Shown here: one piece after another, positions 11,913-46,335 of the stretch | Position numbering within the stretch: position 1 is the stretch's first letter | Layout of the letters: each line of letters opens with the position of its first letter | Source of the DNA: a virus | DNA length: 49,524 nt | Strand: one strand, 5' to 3' | IMG/VR virus record: IMGVR_UViG_3300042290_000428 | Coordinates: 1 to 49,524 of that record | Notes under the pieces: model-generated | The model's database searches: none | The model's input: the letters and a program-made list of their open reading frames with translations, nothing else | Told to the model about the DNA's origin: nothing | Translations under genes and position numbers: made by a program

Positions 11913-12131
11913 TTAGATGTTTTTTGCTGTCCTGTAATTAGACAGCGAATTACGAATGGATTCTAGAAGGCTTTCCTCTGGTGATCCTGCAACTGGAGAT
12001 GCAATGTTCACAGACACAATGGCATCCGTATTCAGCGATCCATCTTCCTTGGTTGGGATGATGCTAATTGATGTAGAAGTGTAGCCAGTAGGCTGTACGG
12101 AGAAGGCGAGTGAGATTTGTTCTTGGTTCAT
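11913..12131 (-). CDS. Hypothetical protein between fibre genes (72 aa)
   Basis: The start at 12131 ([20 protein letters not shown]) is chosen because it overlaps the collagen-like gene's stop by 4 bases. The 72-residue beta-rich protein ends NYRTAKNI. Not recognised. It is placed between two fibre genes, so an adaptor or fibre-associated role is possible. Confidence 0.65.
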
Positions 12132-12865
12132 GAGTAGGTTATAGTGGTTCGGTTTGACCACGAGGCAGAGGTTGCGGACTTCTTTTCGGAAAGACTTCCG
12201 TCAGAGTTGAAGGTCAGGCGGAGAATCGTCCACACGGCTGCACTCTCCGAGGCACCGAGAGCTGATCTCCCGAGGTAATTCACGTTGTTGAGAACGTCGG
12301 AGAGATGCTGGTAGACCGGGGCATCAGCTCCCGCAGCTCCTTGGGGTCCAGTGAGTCCGATGGGACCCGTGAGTCCAGTATCTCCTTTGGCCCCCTGAAT
12401 ACCTTGAATACCCTGAGATCCAGTTGCGCCAGTTGCGCCCGTGTCTCCCTTCAGACCCTGCGGGCCTTGAGCGCCTTGCGGGCCGGTTGCACCGGGTAAA
12501 CCTTGGATACCTTGAGCGCCAGTTGATCCCGTATCGCCTTTGGCTCCCTGAACACCTTGAGGTCCAGTAAGTCCGGTATCTCCCTTGATACCTTGAGGTC
12601 CAGCGGGGCCAGTTGCCCCAGTATCTCCTTTAGGCCCAGTCGCTCCAGTCGCCCCAGTATCTCCTTTAGGTCCGGGAGCCCCTGGGGGTCCATAATTAAA
12701 AATAGCCGGAACTACAGTAGGTTCCAAAACTGAGTGAACTTGGGGGAAGTCCCCAAGGGCAACCCCTAGCTGAAACGGCCTGGAGACAGTTGCTGAGAGC
12801 TGGGGTTGAACAACCTCAGACTCAGAAAGGAGAGGTGAAACTGTCGCTATGATATTTTCGCTCAC
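12128..12865 (-). CDS. Collagen-like tail fibre protein
   Basis: 245 residues from a GTG start (12865) that overlaps the preceding stop (GTGA). The N-terminal about 58 residues are unique. About 38 uninterrupted Gly-X-Y triplets follow (about 59-180; [23 protein letters not shown]), expected to form a collagen-like triple helix. The C-terminal domain ([16 protein letters not shown] to the end) is globular and probably sets trimerisation. Such proteins are known as phage fibres. The low-complexity DNA invites repeat-number change. Confidence 0.85.
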
Positions 12866-20877: not shown

Positions 20878-21083
20878 ACGTCGATTCCAAACTGCGTAAA
20901 TTCGCCCGAGACATTCTAACCGGGGACGACATCAAGATCGACGAAGGGATGCAACTGGCTCGTCAGTTAGAGACCTTTTTGATGGATGCCGGACTCGGGT
21001 TGGAGAATGCCCAGGTTTATTTCATGGAAAAACCCGACGAGCCCAAAGCACTCAGAATCTTCCTATACCGAATCGAAGCATGA
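20874..21083 (+). CDS. Hypothetical protein (69 aa)
   Basis: 69 residues, MNVDSKLRKFARDILTGDDI..., mainly helical, ends FLYRIEA. Overlaps the helicase-nuclease start by 4 bases. Not recognised. Confidence 0.65.
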   Translation: MNVDSKLRKFARDILTGDDIKIDEGMQLARQLETFLMDAGLGLENAQVYFMEKPDEPKALRIFLYRIEA

Positions 21084-23554
21084 AAAAACTCTACCCACGC
21101 CAGGAGGAGCACGCCCTCCGGCTTATGGACATTCTCCGGACGCACAAAAGTGCGCTCGATAGCTCGGAGACCGGATGCGGCAAGACCATCGTCGGAGCTG
21201 AAATCGCCCGCAGAACTCACAAGACGGACCTCATGCCCGTCCTGGTCGTCTGCCCGAAAGCCGTGATCCCGGCTTGGGAGCGAGAACTCAAAGACCGAGG
21301 AATCTGGCCCGCCCACGTTATCAATTATGATAAATTGCGCGGGGGAAAAACCATGTACGGCCACTGGGAAAAGCGCAGGTGGGTCTGGGAGCTGGACGAC
21401 CATGCCCTCATCATCTTCGATGAGGCGCACCGCTGTGCCGGTATCGACACCAAGAACGCCAAGATGCTGATCGAGGCAAAGGACCGCTACCGCGTGCTCA
21501 TGCTTTCGGCTACTCTGGCCAGTTCTCCCACCCAGATGCGTGCCGCAGGCTATCTGCTGGGAGCCCACGGGCTGGGCAACTTCTGGCAGTGGTGCCTGAA
21601 AAACGGCTGCTCGAAGAACCGATGGAACGGCATCGATTTCATGGGCGACCCGAAGCACATCAAGAACATTGCCGAGCAGATCGCTCATCGGTGCTCGCGC
21701 ATGACCGTCAAGGAACTCGGGGACCACTTCACTGAGACCCAAGTGATCACGGAGCCCTTGGATTTTGGAGACGAGATCGCGGAGATCTACGACGAGATGG
21801 AGCAAGAACTCTTGGCTCTGGAAAAGGCCAGCAAGAGCGACAAAAAGAACTCCGCAGCCGAGGCTCTTGTGGCCCAGCTTCGCGCACGCCAGCGCGTCGA
21901 GTTGCTGAAGGTTCCGGTGATCACGGAAATGGCAGAGGATCTCCTCGCGGAAGGCAAGAGTGTCGCGATCTTCGTTAACTTTGATGCGACTCTACAGGCG
22001 CTTTCCTCCAAGCTCAACGCGGAGCTGATTCACGGGAAGCAGAGCGCAACGGAGCGAGAGAGCTCGATTGCAAGGTTCCAGGATGACGCCTCAAACGTGA
22101 TCATCTGCAACACGGCGGCTGGAGGCGTGGGCGTCAGTTTGCACGATGTCACGGGCAAGCATCCCAGGGCCGCAATCATCTCGCCGGATTGGAACGAAAA
22201 GAACATCGTCCAGGTCATCGGTCGCGTCCATCGCGCCGGGGGCAAGACGCCGTCCATGCAACGCATTTTATTCGCTGCCGGAACTGTCGAAGAAAAAGTG
22301 GAAAAGAGCGTCCGAAAGAAAATCGAGAACCTCAAACTTTTGAATGAAAATAGTACTTGTGCTTATCCCGAGCTAATGGTATCACATACCACGAATCAAC
22401 CGCACCAAGCGGACCCACCTAAAACTTCCATGACCAAGCAGACCTCTTCCGTCGTTCAACACACCAACCCCGAAACCCGCCCCCATGCAGAATTCTCGCC
22501 CTCCGCACTCAAGAACTTTGAAGCGTGCCCGTCCTATCGAAGCCGGGGCGGAACCAACCCGATCGCGGAAGCAGGCACCCGCATTCACGAGGCCGTCGAA
22601 AAAGAAGACCCCTCGCTCCTCACCGATGAAACCGAGCAGCAGCTCGCCATCTGGTGCCTTCAATTTTTGGCTCAAACCCGAGGAGATAAAGCTGCTTCCG
22701 CAGATCTCGTGGCTTCTCATCAAGAGATCGCTCTTGAAATGCGACTTGGCGATAACGGTACTTTTGGAACGAGCGACCTACTCGATCTTTATTCTGATGG
22801 CTCAGCAGTCATGTACGACTGGAAAACAGGCTTCGGAGCTGTTGAAGACGCGGAGGTCAACACCCAAGTCTGGGCCTACACCCTCGGAGTCTTCCAAAAG
22901 TTCCCCGTCGTCACTGAGTTGGCTTTCTACCTGGTCCTCCCACGTAGACAGGAAATCTCCTACGCTACGTTCAAGCGATCGGATGTTGATCGGATAAAGC
23001 TGAGGCTTTCGACCATCATCGCCCGTGCTAAGCTGGCTCAGGAGTTTAATCCGACCGAAGGAGTCTGCGACTACTGCTCGAAGCAGGGGTCGTGCAAGGC
23101 TCTGGCAGAGAAGGCCCTTGTCATTGGTCAAAAATCCGGTTTCGACGTCCCTCAGTCCGTATCGTTGGACGGGACCCCGGCGGATCGTGCGAAGTTGCTC
23201 AAACTAGCCACCCTTCTCCAGGGATGGTGCGAGAGCACCAAGAAGGAACTGTTGCGCCAAGCGTTGGAGGAGGGTGCAGAGATTCCCGGCTTCCGGTTGG
23301 ATCAGCGCCGTCTCCCCCGCTCCATTGAGGAGCCCCTCATGGGCTACGAGGCGGTCAAGCATCTTGTCTCTGTCGAAGAATTTCTGTTGGCCTGCACCAG
23401 AGTGTCCGTGCCTTCGTTAGAAAAATTTGTCTCGGAACGTGCCCCCAAGGGCAAGAAGGCGGAAGCCAAGCAGCATCTTGAGGATGCGTTACGAGACAAG
23501 GGTGCCCTCCGCGAGGAAGGGGTTATTCATGTCCTCAAAGCCCTGAAGGCTTGA
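21080..23554 (+). CDS. SF2 helicase fused to Cas4/RecB-like PD-(D/E)XK nuclease
   Basis: 824 residues. Part one (1 to about 435) is an SF2 helicase/translocase: Walker A TGCGKT (31-36), DEAH box (114-117), SAT-like motif LSATLAS and motif VI QVIGRVHRAGG. Part two (about 451-824) has the nuclease core GTSDLLDLY...YDWKTG (Asp580-Lys582) and cysteines FEAC and CDYCSKQGSC, which could hold an Fe-S cluster as in Cas4/AddB. The two parts are joined by a low-complexity linker encoded by DNA that contains the 13-bp intergenic motif (22378-22390) and a new ATG at 22430, as if two genes had fused. A role in replication or recombination is inferred. Confidence 0.85.
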   Translation: MKKLYPRQEEHALRLMDILRTHKSALDSSETGCGKTIVGAEIARRTHKTDLMPVLVVCPKAVIPAWERELKDRGIWPAHVINYDKLRGGKTMYGHWEKRRWVWELDDHALIIFDEAHRCAGIDTKNAKMLIEAKDRYRVLMLSATLASSPTQMRAAGYLLGAHGLGNFWQWCLKNGCSKNRWNGIDFMGDPKHIKNIAEQIAHRCSRMTVKELGDHFTETQVITEPLDFGDEIAEIYDEMEQELLALEKASKSDKKNSAAEALVAQLRARQRVELLKVPVITEMAEDLLAEGKSVAIFVNFDATLQALSSKLNAELIHGKQSATERESSIARFQDDASNVIICNTAAGGVGVSLHDVTGKHPRAAIISPDWNEKNIVQVIGRVHRAGGKTPSMQRILFAAGTVEEKVEKSVRKKIENLKLLNENSTCAYPELMVSHTTNQPHQADPPKTSMTKQTSSVVQHTNPETRPHAEFSPSALKNFEACPSYRSRGGTNPIAEAGTRIHEAVEKEDPSLLTDETEQQLAIWCLQFLAQTRGDKAASADLVASHQEIALEMRLGDNGTFGTSDLLDLYSDGSAVMYDWKTGFGAVEDAEVNTQVWAYTLGVFQKFPVVTELAFYLVLPRRQEISYATFKRSDVDRIKLRLSTIIARAKLAQEFNPTEGVCDYCSKQGSCKALAEKALVIGQKSGFDVPQSVSLDGTPADRAKLLKLATLLQGWCESTKKELLRQALEEGAEIPGFRLDQRRLPRSIEEPLMGYEAVKHLVSVEEFLLACTRVSVPSLEKFVSERAPKGKKAEAKQHLEDALRDKGALREEGVIHVLKALKA
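22378..22390 (+). promoter_or_regulatory. 13-bp motif inside the helicase-nuclease linker
   Basis: GGTATCACATACC, in the coding linker, followed by an A/C-rich leader and ATG at 22430, just like true intergenic copies. It suggests the nuclease part was, or still is, expressed separately. Confidence 0.5.
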
Positions 23555-42817: not shown

Positions 42818-42830
42818 GGTTGCATATACC
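42818..42830 (+). promoter_or_regulatory. 13-bp motif
   Basis: GGTTGCATATACC followed by acaaccctaccct and ATG at 42844, only 13 bases downstream. Confidence 0.55.
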
Positions 42831-42843
42831 ACAACCCTACCCT

Positions 42844-43554
42844 ATGAAAGTACACCTCACCCTTAGATCCAGCAACGCAAAGACCGGACCCATCCCAGTG
42901 TCAACCTCCTCCGCTGAGACTTGCCCCGACGCTTGCCCCTTCAAGGGAGCGGGGTGCTATGCCGACGGCGGCCCGTTGGCACTCCATTGGAGAGCCGTCA
43001 CCAACGAGACCCGTGGAACCTACTGGCAGTCCTTCATCAGACAGATACACGAGCTACCGCAGGGTCAGCTCTGGCGTCATAACCAAGCTGGCGACTTGCC
43101 GGGTCTCAACGACGACATCGACCGCGACAAGTTGAAGGATCTCGCCATAGCCAACCAAGGCAAGCGCGGCTTCACCTACACCCACAAGCCGCCAACCCGT
43201 CGCAACTTGGAGCTGATACACTCTGCCAACGCACGCGGGTTCACGATCAATCTCAGCGCCAACACTCTTGACCATGCTGATCGCTTGGTCAAAACGGGAT
43301 TGCCCGTTGTCGTCGTTCTCCCATCAGAGGACGTGGACAAACGCAATCAGTTAACTCCGGCGGGTCACGAGGTTGTGACTTGCCCAGCCACCCGATCGGA
43401 GCGGATCAACTGCTCCACGTGCGGCCTGTGTCAGAAGAAGAACAGAGGGTTCATCATCGGCTTCCCAGCCCATGGAGCCCGTAAAAAACAGCTCAGTAAT
43501 TTAGTGCGCGGGGTATCACACACCGCGCACCAACCCCAACCAACAACCAACTAA
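42844..43554 (+). CDS. Conserved phage protein with Cys clusters (236 aa)
   Basis: 236 residues from the ATG at 42844 (MKVHLTLRSSNAKTGPIPVS). The N-terminal CPDACPFKGAGCYAD and C-terminal CSTCGLCQKKNRGFIIGFPA cysteines look like a metal or Fe-S site. The centre has a strand-helix pattern (KRGFTYTHKPPTRRNLELIH, FTINLSANTL, LPVVVVLPSEDV) suggestive of a TIM-barrel/radical-SAM-like fold. From memory it is a recurrent phage family of unknown function, close to the methyltransferase gene here. Confidence 0.68.
   Translation: MKVHLTLRSSNAKTGPIPVSTSSAETCPDACPFKGAGCYADGGPLALHWRAVTNETRGTYWQSFIRQIHELPQGQLWRHNQAGDLPGLNDDIDRDKLKDLAIANQGKRGFTYTHKPPTRRNLELIHSANARGFTINLSANTLDHADRLVKTGLPVVVVLPSEDVDKRNQLTPAGHEVVTCPATRSERINCSTCGLCQKKNRGFIIGFPAHGARKKQLSNLVRGVSHTAHQPQPTTN
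43512..43524 (+). promoter_or_regulatory. 13-bp motif before the overlapping methyltransferase genes
   Basis: GGTATCACACACC, inside the end of the upstream gene, 32 bases before the ATG at 43557. Confidence 0.5.
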
Positions 43555-43556
43555 AA

Positions 43557-44924
43557 ATGTGGATACTACCGAAACAATTACACACGTTAGCCTGTGCTCT
43601 GGATACGGAGGCATTGACCTGGGACTCCGAGCAGCTGTGCCAAACCTACGAACAATCGCTTACTGTGAACGGGAAGCCTTCCCGATCTCGATCCTTCTCC
43701 GCCGCATTGAAGAAGGACAACTGGATGTCGGCCCTATCCACACGGACCTTAAAACCTTCCCTTGGGCAGAGTTTCGTGACCGAGTTTCTATCCTCAGCGG
43801 CGGTTATCCGTGCCAGCCATTTTCCGCAGCCGGAAACCGACTCGGCAAAGACGACCCCCGACACCTCTGGCCTTGGATCAAGGAAGGAATTACTATCATG
43901 CAACCCAAGCAATGCTTCTTCGAGAACGTCGATGGACACGTCTCGATGGGACTCTCCTCAGTCATCAGCGACTTGGAAGAAATTGGTTACAAAGCGACGT
44001 GGGGAATTTTCAGCGCGTCTGAAGTCCTCGATTGCGAAGGCCGAAATGCTCCACACCAACGCAAGCGCGTCTTCATCCTGGCCGACCGCATCGACGAGGG
44101 ATCACAAGGGAGGCTACGGGGGTGGACGAGTTCGGGATGGAAAGATCTCGATGGACACCTTGGACGTAGCGGTGCAAGCGTACTCGGACGGTGGCCTTCT
44201 CGCCCCGGAGAGCGCCAATACGCTTGGGAGCCGCCCAGAGTTGTGGAGAACACCAAGCTCGTCGGACGGGGAGGGGGGCATCATGGAGATGCGCCCGGGG
44301 ACGGCGGGGAAGTACAAGTTGAGGGATCACGTCCATGCGAAGTGGGCGACTCCTTCAGCCTTCGACTGGAACCAGCCCGAGACCAAGGAGCAGTGGGAGA
44401 AGCGAGCGGCAACGCAAGCGGAGAAGGGGGTCAACCTACATCTGCCTTTGAAATCACAAGCCATTCAGGTGGGGAACACCTGGGCTACCCCGAACGCGGG
44501 GGACTTCAAGGCTGGGATGGCGACGGGTCGCAAGCAGAAGAGCTTGGGGCAGGACGTGACCAACAGCTTGGCCAACTGGGCAACCCCCAACACGCTGGAT
44601 CACATGGCTCTGCGTTCTCCCGAAGCATTACTCCGTCAAGCGACGACCACGCGGGCGGGGAGAACAGCGCCAGCCAATCTGAGGGAGCAAGTCGATCCGG
44701 CCTCAGTGGAGATCTACGAGACCAGAACGGCTTCGCCCAAGCAGAAGATCACCCACAAATTGAACCCTCGTTTTGTGGAGACTTTGATGGGCCTGCCGAT
44801 CGGGTGGGTTATGCCGAGTTGTGCAAAACCTATATCAACCGCACCCACGAGCTTAGGGCACTCGGGAATGGCGTTGTCTGGCAGCAGGCCGAGCTTGCCT
44901 ATCGGGTGCTTACAGAACAACTGA
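43557..44924 (+). CDS. Second long reading frame overlapping the methyltransferase (455 aa)
   Basis: 455 codons without a stop, starting ATG at 43557, two bases before the methyltransferase GTG, and ending 14 bases before its stop. The protein has recognisable pieces that I recall from phage ORFs beside cytosine methyltransferases: SFVTEFLSSAAVIRASH, SSWPTASTRDHKGG, several WATPNAGD-type segments (about 195-360) and LNPRFVETLMGLPIGWVMPSC near the C-terminus. No catalytic motif is known. The same-strand overlap over more than 99% of its length makes it either a true overprinted gene or a strongly conserved shadow. In the second half its repeats look more protein-like than the other frame. Confidence 0.55.
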   Translation: MWILPKQLHTLACALDTEALTWDSEQLCQTYEQSLTVNGKPSRSRSFSAALKKDNWMSALSTRTLKPSLGQSFVTEFLSSAAVIRASHFPQPETDSAKTTPDTSGLGSRKELLSCNPSNASSRTSMDTSRWDSPQSSATWKKLVTKRRGEFSARLKSSIAKAEMLHTNASASSSWPTASTRDHKGGYGGGRVRDGKISMDTLDVAVQAYSDGGLLAPESANTLGSRPELWRTPSSSDGEGGIMEMRPGTAGKYKLRDHVHAKWATPSAFDWNQPETKEQWEKRAATQAEKGVNLHLPLKSQAIQVGNTWATPNAGDFKAGMATGRKQKSLGQDVTNSLANWATPNTLDHMALRSPEALLRQATTTRAGRTAPANLREQVDPASVEIYETRTASPKQKITHKLNPRFVETLMGLPIGWVMPSCAKPISTAPTSLGHSGMALSGSRPSLPIGCLQNN

Positions 44925-44938
44925 TCCAGAACTCTTGA
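43559..44938 (+). CDS. DNA (cytosine-5) methyltransferase
   Basis: 459 residues from GTG at 43559. C5-methyltransferase motifs are in order: I (SLCSGYGGIDLGL, 11-23), IV (GGYPCQPFS with nucleophile Cys85), VI (ENV, 122-124), VIII (QRKRVFILA, 167-175), and X near the end (RALGNGVVWQQAELA). Between VIII and X, about 230 residues are a Gly/Ser/Asp/Glu-rich low-complexity stretch in place of a normal target-recognition domain; this is exactly where the overlapping frame carries its conserved segments. It probably protects phage DNA from host restriction by methylating cytosine. The recognition site cannot be predicted. Confidence 0.88.
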   Translation: MDTTETITHVSLCSGYGGIDLGLRAAVPNLRTIAYCEREAFPISILLRRIEEGQLDVGPIHTDLKTFPWAEFRDRVSILSGGYPCQPFSAAGNRLGKDDPRHLWPWIKEGITIMQPKQCFFENVDGHVSMGLSSVISDLEEIGYKATWGIFSASEVLDCEGRNAPHQRKRVFILADRIDEGSQGRLRGWTSSGWKDLDGHLGRSGASVLGRWPSRPGERQYAWEPPRVVENTKLVGRGGGHHGDAPGDGGEVQVEGSRPCEVGDSFSLRLEPARDQGAVGEASGNASGEGGQPTSAFEITSHSGGEHLGYPERGGLQGWDGDGSQAEELGAGRDQQLGQLGNPQHAGSHGSAFSRSITPSSDDHAGGENSASQSEGASRSGLSGDLRDQNGFAQAEDHPQIEPSFCGDFDGPADRVGYAELCKTYINRTHELRALGNGVVWQQAELAYRVLTEQLIQNS

Positions 44939-45532: not shown

Positions 45533-45919
45533 TCAACGCTTCAGGCCAGTCAGCGCCTTGAGGAGCGTACGGACAATCAGTCCGATCAGATAAGCCAGGG
45601 CTTCCTCTTCACCCTCCACTTCCTTCACGCCTTTCTCTCGGAGAATATCCGAAGCGATATGAACCGCCTCATGCGACAGTATGGAAAGATGGTGGATGTC
45701 GGTGTCCCAGCTTGACAGCATGAGCACCGAACCCTGATCAGTCCTGTAGGTAGCGGCATCGTCGCCACCCTCCAACGGCGTCAAATCAAGTCCCCGTTTC
45801 TTGCACCATTGCTTCGCTTGCTCCGGAGAAACTGGCCAGACCAGCACGATCTGATCGTTGTAGATCTCGATTGGAAGGGCCTTGGTACGGACTGGAGTTG
45901 GCTTGGTCTTGGCGCTCAT
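45533..45919 (-). CDS. Small HExxH metallopeptidase-like phage protein
   Basis: 128 residues. SHEAVHIASDIL (about 82-93) carries a full HExxH zinc motif with a following acidic helix (EGEEEALAYLIGLIVRTLL) that could give the third ligand. From memory, small phage proteins of this form exist without known substrate. Its start overlaps the stop of the HNH gene (ATGA), so the two are one minus-strand unit in an otherwise plus-strand region. Confidence 0.72.
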   Translation of the reverse strand: MSAKTKPTPVRTKALPIEIYNDQIVLVWPVSPEQAKQWCKKRGLDLTPLEGGDDAATYRTDQGSVLMLSSWDTDIHHLSILSHEAVHIASDILREKGVKEVEGEEEALAYLIGLIVRTLLKALTGLKR

Positions 45920-46335
45920 AGGTCGGGGGCTAGGAATTGACCGATGTCAAGAAGGCCAGCGTGCCTTTCTCGATGGCACCGGCAGCACAGGAGCAAACAT
46001 TTCTCAGCTTCCTTCATTGCGGAAGGCATATGGTTCCGGCCACTGGAAACCGCAAAACTCTTCTGCTTGGGATCGAGGTGATCAAACTCCAGGGCAGAGA
46101 TACACTTGTCGTAGCCGCACGCGGCACAGGCTCCCCCGTATTCCTGCTTGATCTGAGTTGAGATCTTCCTGCGGCGCTTCCGGTTACGGGCCACCGTCTT
46201 CTCTTTCTGTCCTTCGGACAGAAAGTAGCTCACCGTCCCAAGAGAGCACGGGATCGTTTTGGCGATGCCCTTGTAGGACATACCTTTCCCCCTGAGTTCT
46301 GCAATGGTGTTTCCTAAGATGCTCAAATTGCACAA
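45916..46335 (-). CDS. HNH endonuclease with N-terminal helix-turn-helix
   Basis: 139 residues. The N-terminal HTH (NTIAELRGKGMSYKGIAKTI...GTVSYFL, about 9-39) is followed by a basic linker. The HNH/zinc part has CAACGYDKCISALEFDHLDP (His-Asp-His region) and CLLLCCRCHRERHAG, giving the Cys4-type zinc HNH pattern. Probably a homing-type nuclease; it forms an operon with the HExxH protein. Its start is 45 bases from the motif-like palindrome region upstream. Confidence 0.8.
   Translation of the reverse strand: MCNLSILGNTIAELRGKGMSYKGIAKTIPCSLGTVSYFLSEGQKEKTVARNRKRRRKISTQIKQEYGGACAACGYDKCISALEFDHLDPKQKSFAVSSGRNHMPSAMKEAEKCLLLCCRCHRERHAGLLDIGQFLAPDL

Follow-up and report, generated by a model that had tools for sequence, protein, structure and literature searches.

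Multispecific C5-cytosine methyltransferases of Bacillus phages contain recognition domains of about 40 aa, which lie between motifs VIII and IX. In another C5 methyltransferase, M.EcoHK31I, the smaller gene is reported to lie inside the larger one, in another reading frame (Lee et al. 1995). M.EcoHK31I and M.AquI are both two-polypeptide C5 methyltransferases, and M.EcoHK31I (YGGCCR) has motifs I-VIII and X on its larger subunit and motif IX on the smaller, with a predicted recognition domain reported on the larger subunit (PMC3404938). The Bacillus phage methyltransferases SPR, phi3T, SPbeta, and H2 carry several recognition domains per enzyme, directed against many restriction systems (PMC12707154). 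Overlapping start codons of the AUGUG type form a further precedent, as translation of both overlapping frames has been shown experimentally at such sites in E. coli (PMC9841429).

The window analyzed here is an entire virus record of 49,524 bases, and two frames on its plus strand span nearly the same DNA at 43557-44938. We consider it highly probable, judging from sequence comparisons, that a single C5-cytosine DNA methyltransferase is encoded here in two pieces, each a separate polypeptide read from one of two same-strand frames that overlap completely. The alpha frame (43559..44938, GTG start, 459 aa) encodes a C5-cytosine methyltransferase with motifs I-VIII and X, while the beta frame (43557..44924, ATG start, 455 aa), which is +1 relative to alpha, encodes an array of recognition-like cassettes and motif IX. 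The beta stop codon occupies 44922-44924, and the alpha stop ends at 44938. A preliminary description of this DNA had placed the two starts at 43557 and 43559, sharing the bases ATGTG, and had given the second frame 455 aa, all of which we confirmed. In the mechanism that we propose, ribosomes at the ATGTG would start either at the ATG, producing beta, or two bases further on at the GTG, producing alpha. Alpha would provide motifs I-VIII, which form the domain for cofactor binding and catalysis, as well as motif X at the end, and the long stretch of low complexity that links the two would owe its sequence to the beta frame. Beta would supply in trans about five exchangeable target-recognition cassettes in tandem, followed by motif IX, and the complete enzyme would form from the two chains together. 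Its target sites would differ with the cassettes present, and phage DNA could be protected against several host restriction systems from one gene-sized locus. By analogy with the multispecific Bacillus phage enzymes, it is most likely that the cassettes set the target sites and that the phage uses them to shield its DNA from host restriction (PMC12707154).

Directly upstream of the pair, a gene for a DUF7227 protein (PF23872) occupies 42820-43554, leaving two bases between its end and the beta ATG, and an HNH endonuclease-like gene identified with PHROGs lies downstream of the methyltransferase on the minus strand (45916-46335). Elsewhere in the record we found a collagen-like triple-helix repeat protein (PF01391) on the minus strand (12128-12865) and a single ORF (21080-23554) in which a helicase is joined to a DUF2800/PD-(D/E)XK-like region. 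The remaining window proteins that were scanned, the nearest neighbors among them, gave no match to defense-system models.

The catalytic domain of a C5-cytosine methyltransferase (PF00145) is present in alpha, and the columns of its motifs I, IV (PCQ), VI (ENV), and VIII are invariant among 58 alphas. On the plus strand, as for all features described below, these motifs are found at 43586..43624 (motif I, VSLCSGYGGIDLG), 43808..43825 (motif IV, PCQPFS, with the catalytic cysteine), 43922..43930 (motif VI), and 44054..44074 (motif VIII, HQRKRVF). Alpha matches phrog_363 in PHROGs (E=8e-49), and the PF00145 match (E=2e-24) covers residues 8-180 only. Beyond this lies a variable low-complexity region (residues 196-426, 44144..44837) that is mostly predicted to be disordered and is kept open over the beta cassettes; by column conservation it includes a single conserved element, WPSRPGERQYAWEPPRV, at 44192-44242. 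Motif X (RALGNGVV, 44855..44878) and C-terminal helices follow, and motif X is found in the alpha of every complete sequence except one relative, L072, in which it is in the beta frame, suggesting that motif X can move between subunits through a frame change. In the predicted structure of alpha, the catalytic domain and the motif X helices are confident, with a pLDDT of about 90 over the last 20 residues, and the part in between is mostly disordered, with values mostly below 50 in residues 196-426. The predicted catalytic domain matches M.HhaI and M.HaeIII (Foldseek, E~1e-11). The odd sequence of the alpha middle arises from the shared DNA, as beta W-P-T-P codons are read in alpha as an A-D-A-like string. 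What alpha lacks is a recognition region and motif IX between motifs VIII and X; only the two chains together would have the full set. The initial claim that the methyltransferase frame keeps all catalytic motifs is therefore accurate for motifs IV, VI, and X but not for motif IX, which we detected at 44772 in the second frame.

No Pfam family was found for beta, and neither a profile search nor a fold match returned a solved structure; the beta model is weak on its own (pLDDT 56, pTM 0.30). Beta does match phrog_1008, annotated as DNA methyltransferase (E=1.5e-20), and the second-frame segments that had been likened to phage ORFs next to cytosine methyltransferases proved to be real relatives. 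The middle of beta is an array of cassettes, each opening with W[PA]TPxxxD, that runs directly into motif IX. As cut by pattern, cassette 1 (WPTASTRDHKGG..., recurrent family A) lies at 44079..44243, cassette 2 (WRTPSSSDGEGGIMEMRPG..., family K) at 44244..44342, cassette 3 (WATPSAFDWNQPETKEQW..., family F) at 44343..44480, cassette 4 (WATPNAGDFKAGM..., without a recurrent family) at 44481..44576, and cassette 5 (WATPNTLDHMALRSPEAL..., family C) with a linker at 44577..44756. Motif IX (KLNPRFVETLMGLPIGWV) then occupies 44757..44810. Among the 67 distinct sequences analyzed, the pattern places motif IX in the beta frame in 62 and in the alpha frame in none, the remaining five being truncated or without a pattern match. 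The same type of cutting yielded 262 cassettes from 61 betas, with 1-8 per beta (median 4) and a median length of 37 aa; because a regular expression was used, the cassette limits are only rough, and a few of the short hits may not be genuine. These cassettes fall into 49 recurrent families and 52 singletons, and their order differs among betas. Recent cassette recombination at the nucleotide level was considered and rejected, since at least 90% identity is reached in only 7 of the 569 pairs formed within a family between divergent genes; shuffling is visible in the order and content of cassettes and not as recent transfer. In one relative (L027:2963-4888), the beta frame extends well past alpha and the motif IX block is repeated, with two copies of WVEVLMGLPVGW, which is possibly a duplicated recognition module.

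Relatives with other arrangements inform the role of beta. In the actinophages Rita, Gudmit, and MelBins, phrog_363 and phrog_1008 both match one chain, and cassettes, motif IX, and motif X are found in a single methyltransferase, while gp53 of Gordonia phage Upyo carries cassettes, IX, and X on a chain separate from that with motifs I-VIII. On this basis we read beta as the recognition and motif IX subunit. Within single genes of these three actinophages (L113, L114, and L119), cassette-like LPTP repeats are read first in +1 and further on in the frame of the methyltransferase, a layout that would result if the two chains had been fused by a frame change. The absence of a Pfam family or structural match would also fit a beta that is a separate overprinted protein outside the enzyme, such as a regulator, an anti-restriction factor, or some other partner. 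We regard this as improbable, because motif IX is in beta and absent from alpha, because cassettes, IX, and X share one chain in Rita, Gudmit, and MelBins, and because beta is always found with an alpha. The second product had been proposed at first to be a partner or regulator of the methyltransferase; the partner is best understood as the missing target-recognition and motif IX subunit of the same enzyme, and not as a regulator or an unrelated overprinted protein. A stand-alone beta gene, which had been named as something to look for, was not found among the viral relatives or at the 73 distinct bacterial loci examined among the best 80 of 413 bacterial relatives; beta was either nested in or fused to its methyltransferase.

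When the synonymous codons of alpha were shuffled in 5000 trials, the +1 frame had a mean of 5.2 stops and was free of stops in 6. Opening by chance is thus unlikely from this single sequence but the result is not decisive, and we therefore ran a stop test on homologs. IMG/VR was scanned for relatives with alpha and with beta, the scan with the beta alignment reporting 190, and we analyzed 67 distinct sequences, comprising the window, the GenBank phage C75C1, and 65 from IMG/VR. Both frames are open in all 67. Across 65 complete sequences, the beta frame has 0 stops against about 339 expected, and the alpha frame under the cassettes has 21 against about 370, while the third frame is near random (1160 seen, 1145 expected). 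Beta runs beyond alpha's own stop in six loci, and these loci may account for the 21 alpha-frame stops. Nine more loci that the pattern search had missed have the same overlapping frame pair by profile.

The two starts are kept together as well. The ATGTG (43557..43561), in which overlapping AUG and GUG codons each open a long frame as at an AUGUG-type site, occurs as ATGTGG in 51 of the 67 sequences, and in every one of them the ATG of beta is no more than 8 nt from the start codon of alpha. Where ATGTGG is absent, alpha mostly starts with an ATG that follows the beta ATG by 5-8 bases; phage C75C1 has the two starts in reverse order. There is no obvious Shine-Dalgarno sequence in the window; reinitiation after the upstream gene, which ends at 43554, is possible. 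Downstream of the starts, a 5' stretch of about 45 codons (43557..43691) is constrained in both frames, and relative to the two closest relatives of the window, L004 and L005, amino acid identity over codons 1-45 is 0.89-0.95 in alpha and 0.91-0.93 in beta, with alpha third-position differences of 0.07. The beta frame of the bacterial and Paenibacillus relatives begins within alpha, so co-initiation at ATGTG would be restricted to the window's clade. The starts also bear on a reading in which a single chain is made by a double ribosomal frameshift, +1 after motif VIII into the frame of the cassettes and motif IX and back again before motif X. The functional order of motifs I-VIII, cassettes, IX, and X does alternate between the frames, and a continuous chain of this order exists in some actinophages, but such a chain would not require beta to stay open in its 5' part, or alpha beneath the cassettes, and both do. 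Given in addition the constraint on both frames over codons 1-45, the two start codons kept in 67 of 67 sequences, and the separate internal start of beta in a Paenibacillus phage, we think it improbable that frameshifting explains the locus.

The two-chain arrangement extends beyond the window's clade. Paenibacillus phage Shelly has a nested pair, gp55/gp56, annotated with "g55 internal gene", and Microcystis phage Mae-JY24 has the same nesting. Scanning of bacterial genome contigs with the window-clade beta gave no match, and with the shorter Paenibacillus-type beta it gave the 413 relatives mentioned above. At 56 of the 73 bacterial loci, alpha contains motif X and beta lies in the +1 frame; a further 11 were not resolved by pattern, and in all 11 alpha and beta overlap by profile. 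At the remaining six, alpha is without a recognized motif X or stops before motif IX. A single-chain methyltransferase that is decaying, or that has been frameshifted by mutation or assembly error, might be suspected where motif X switches frame, as it does in L072 and in some of the bacterial loci, but the same frame relation recurs under purifying selection in 67 distinct viral sequences, in isolated phages, and in bacterial genomes, which contradicts this reading and leaves it very unlikely.

Selection on the two frames was assessed by comparing codon positions between the window and L004 and L005. Past the doubly constrained 5' stretch, variation in codons 46-135 is chiefly at alpha third positions, and beta may be largely passive where alpha dominates in this way. 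In codons 181-405, variation is chiefly at beta third positions and avoids beta positions 1-2; identity there is 0.66-1.0 in beta and mostly 0.45-0.62 in alpha, with one block reaching 80%. Around motif X, in codons 406-450, the constraint is again of the alpha type. These substitution patterns show purifying selection on both frames, which take turns along the gene as the more strongly constrained one. Four-fold sites in the 5' part of alpha differ at 0.23 and 0.21 in two genome pairs, in which the neighboring genes reach 0.50 and 0.59 (Fisher p = 2.5e-4 and 1e-7). The depression in a family-wide third-position comparison is only modest, and we therefore used the same-genome-pair comparison, which is the stronger evidence. 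Several expectations raised in the preliminary description are borne out by these data: its second frame is stop-free in homologs, synonymous variation in the methyltransferase frame is lowered in the 5' part, alpha is constrained toward its 5' and 3' ends and beta in the middle (codons 1-45 in both), and the low complexity seen in alpha between motifs VIII and X coincides with the region in which beta is more conserved. A reading in which alpha alone is real, and the second frame is open through codon bias and seemingly conserved through alpha, can be dismissed almost entirely: part of the beta similarity does echo conserved alpha codons (PCQPFS, ILAD) and codons 46-135 do follow alpha, but it is contradicted by the absence of stops from every sequence against about 5 expected per gene, by the substitutions on beta third positions and the greater conservation of beta in codons 181-405, and by the beta start kept in 67 of 67.

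Two-polypeptide C5 methyltransferases are already known; what appears to be new here is the paired ATGTG starts, the whole-gene overlap, and the variable array of candidate recognition cassettes in the second frame. In open-access full text, we found no prior description of a full-length overlap from paired starts, of a variable cassette array in a second frame, or of its spread. More broadly, we lean toward the view that C5 methyltransferases of this class are widespread in phages and prophages, each with an exchangeable specificity subunit of several cassettes whose coding sequence lies on top of that for the catalytic subunit. In this clade, a single ATGTG site would launch both subunits and set their ratio, and each cassette would have to evolve while leaving alpha open as a linker. 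Long same-strand overlaps in bacteria and phages rarely come with strong comparative evidence, and here about 1.4 kb is dual-coding in at least 67 distinct viral sequences. The enzyme appears to be cut into subunits by frame instead of by length, and this explains how phage methyltransferases of this kind come to lack a recognition region and motif IX when only one frame is annotated. The arrays are also a large natural collection of putative recognition cassettes. Finally, the locus offers a case under visible selection in which to ask whether AUGUG sites express two functional proteins, and its two-start design is directly testable.

Compared with M.EcoHK31I, its nearest precedent, the window locus likewise has motifs I-VIII and X on the large chain and motif IX on a second chain, whose gene lies inside that of the large chain in a different frame. 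The predicted recognition domain of M.EcoHK31I is reported on its large subunit, however, whereas the recognition-like cassettes of the window are on beta; the division of labor thus differs, and we counted this against our reading. The beta of M.EcoHK31I is also short, while the window beta overlaps alpha from the start codon and its cassette content varies among relatives. M.AquI (CYCGRG) resembles the window locus in having the catalytic half and the recognition and motif IX half on separate polypeptides (PMC3404938). Its motif X is on the small subunit, in contrast to that of the window, which is on alpha, but an M.AquI-like motif X on the beta chain is found in L072 and in Upyo gp53. The candidate cassettes of the window's clade (1-8 per beta, median 37 aa, immediately before motif IX) fit in size and place with the recognition domains of the multispecific Bacillus phage enzymes, which are single chains in one frame where the window locus uses two. 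Shelly gp55/gp56 (phrog_363/phrog_1008) has the same nested alpha and beta with motif IX on an internal +1 gene, although the Shelly beta starts inside alpha, is 234 aa long, and has three cassettes. AUGUG sites with ambiguous initiation in E. coli pqiA, tamA, and narQ and in Thermus rnpA-rpmH also use overlapping starts to open two overlapping frames (PMC9841429); the site of the window's clade, where dual initiation is predicted, differs in being kept in 51 of 67 sequences and in opening two long frames under selection. The ShiLan domain of phage methylases is likewise a hidden out-of-frame gene within a phage methylase gene (PMC11855218), but it is an inserted HNH homing endonuclease and no enzyme subunit, whereas the beta frame described here very probably encodes half of the methyltransferase itself.
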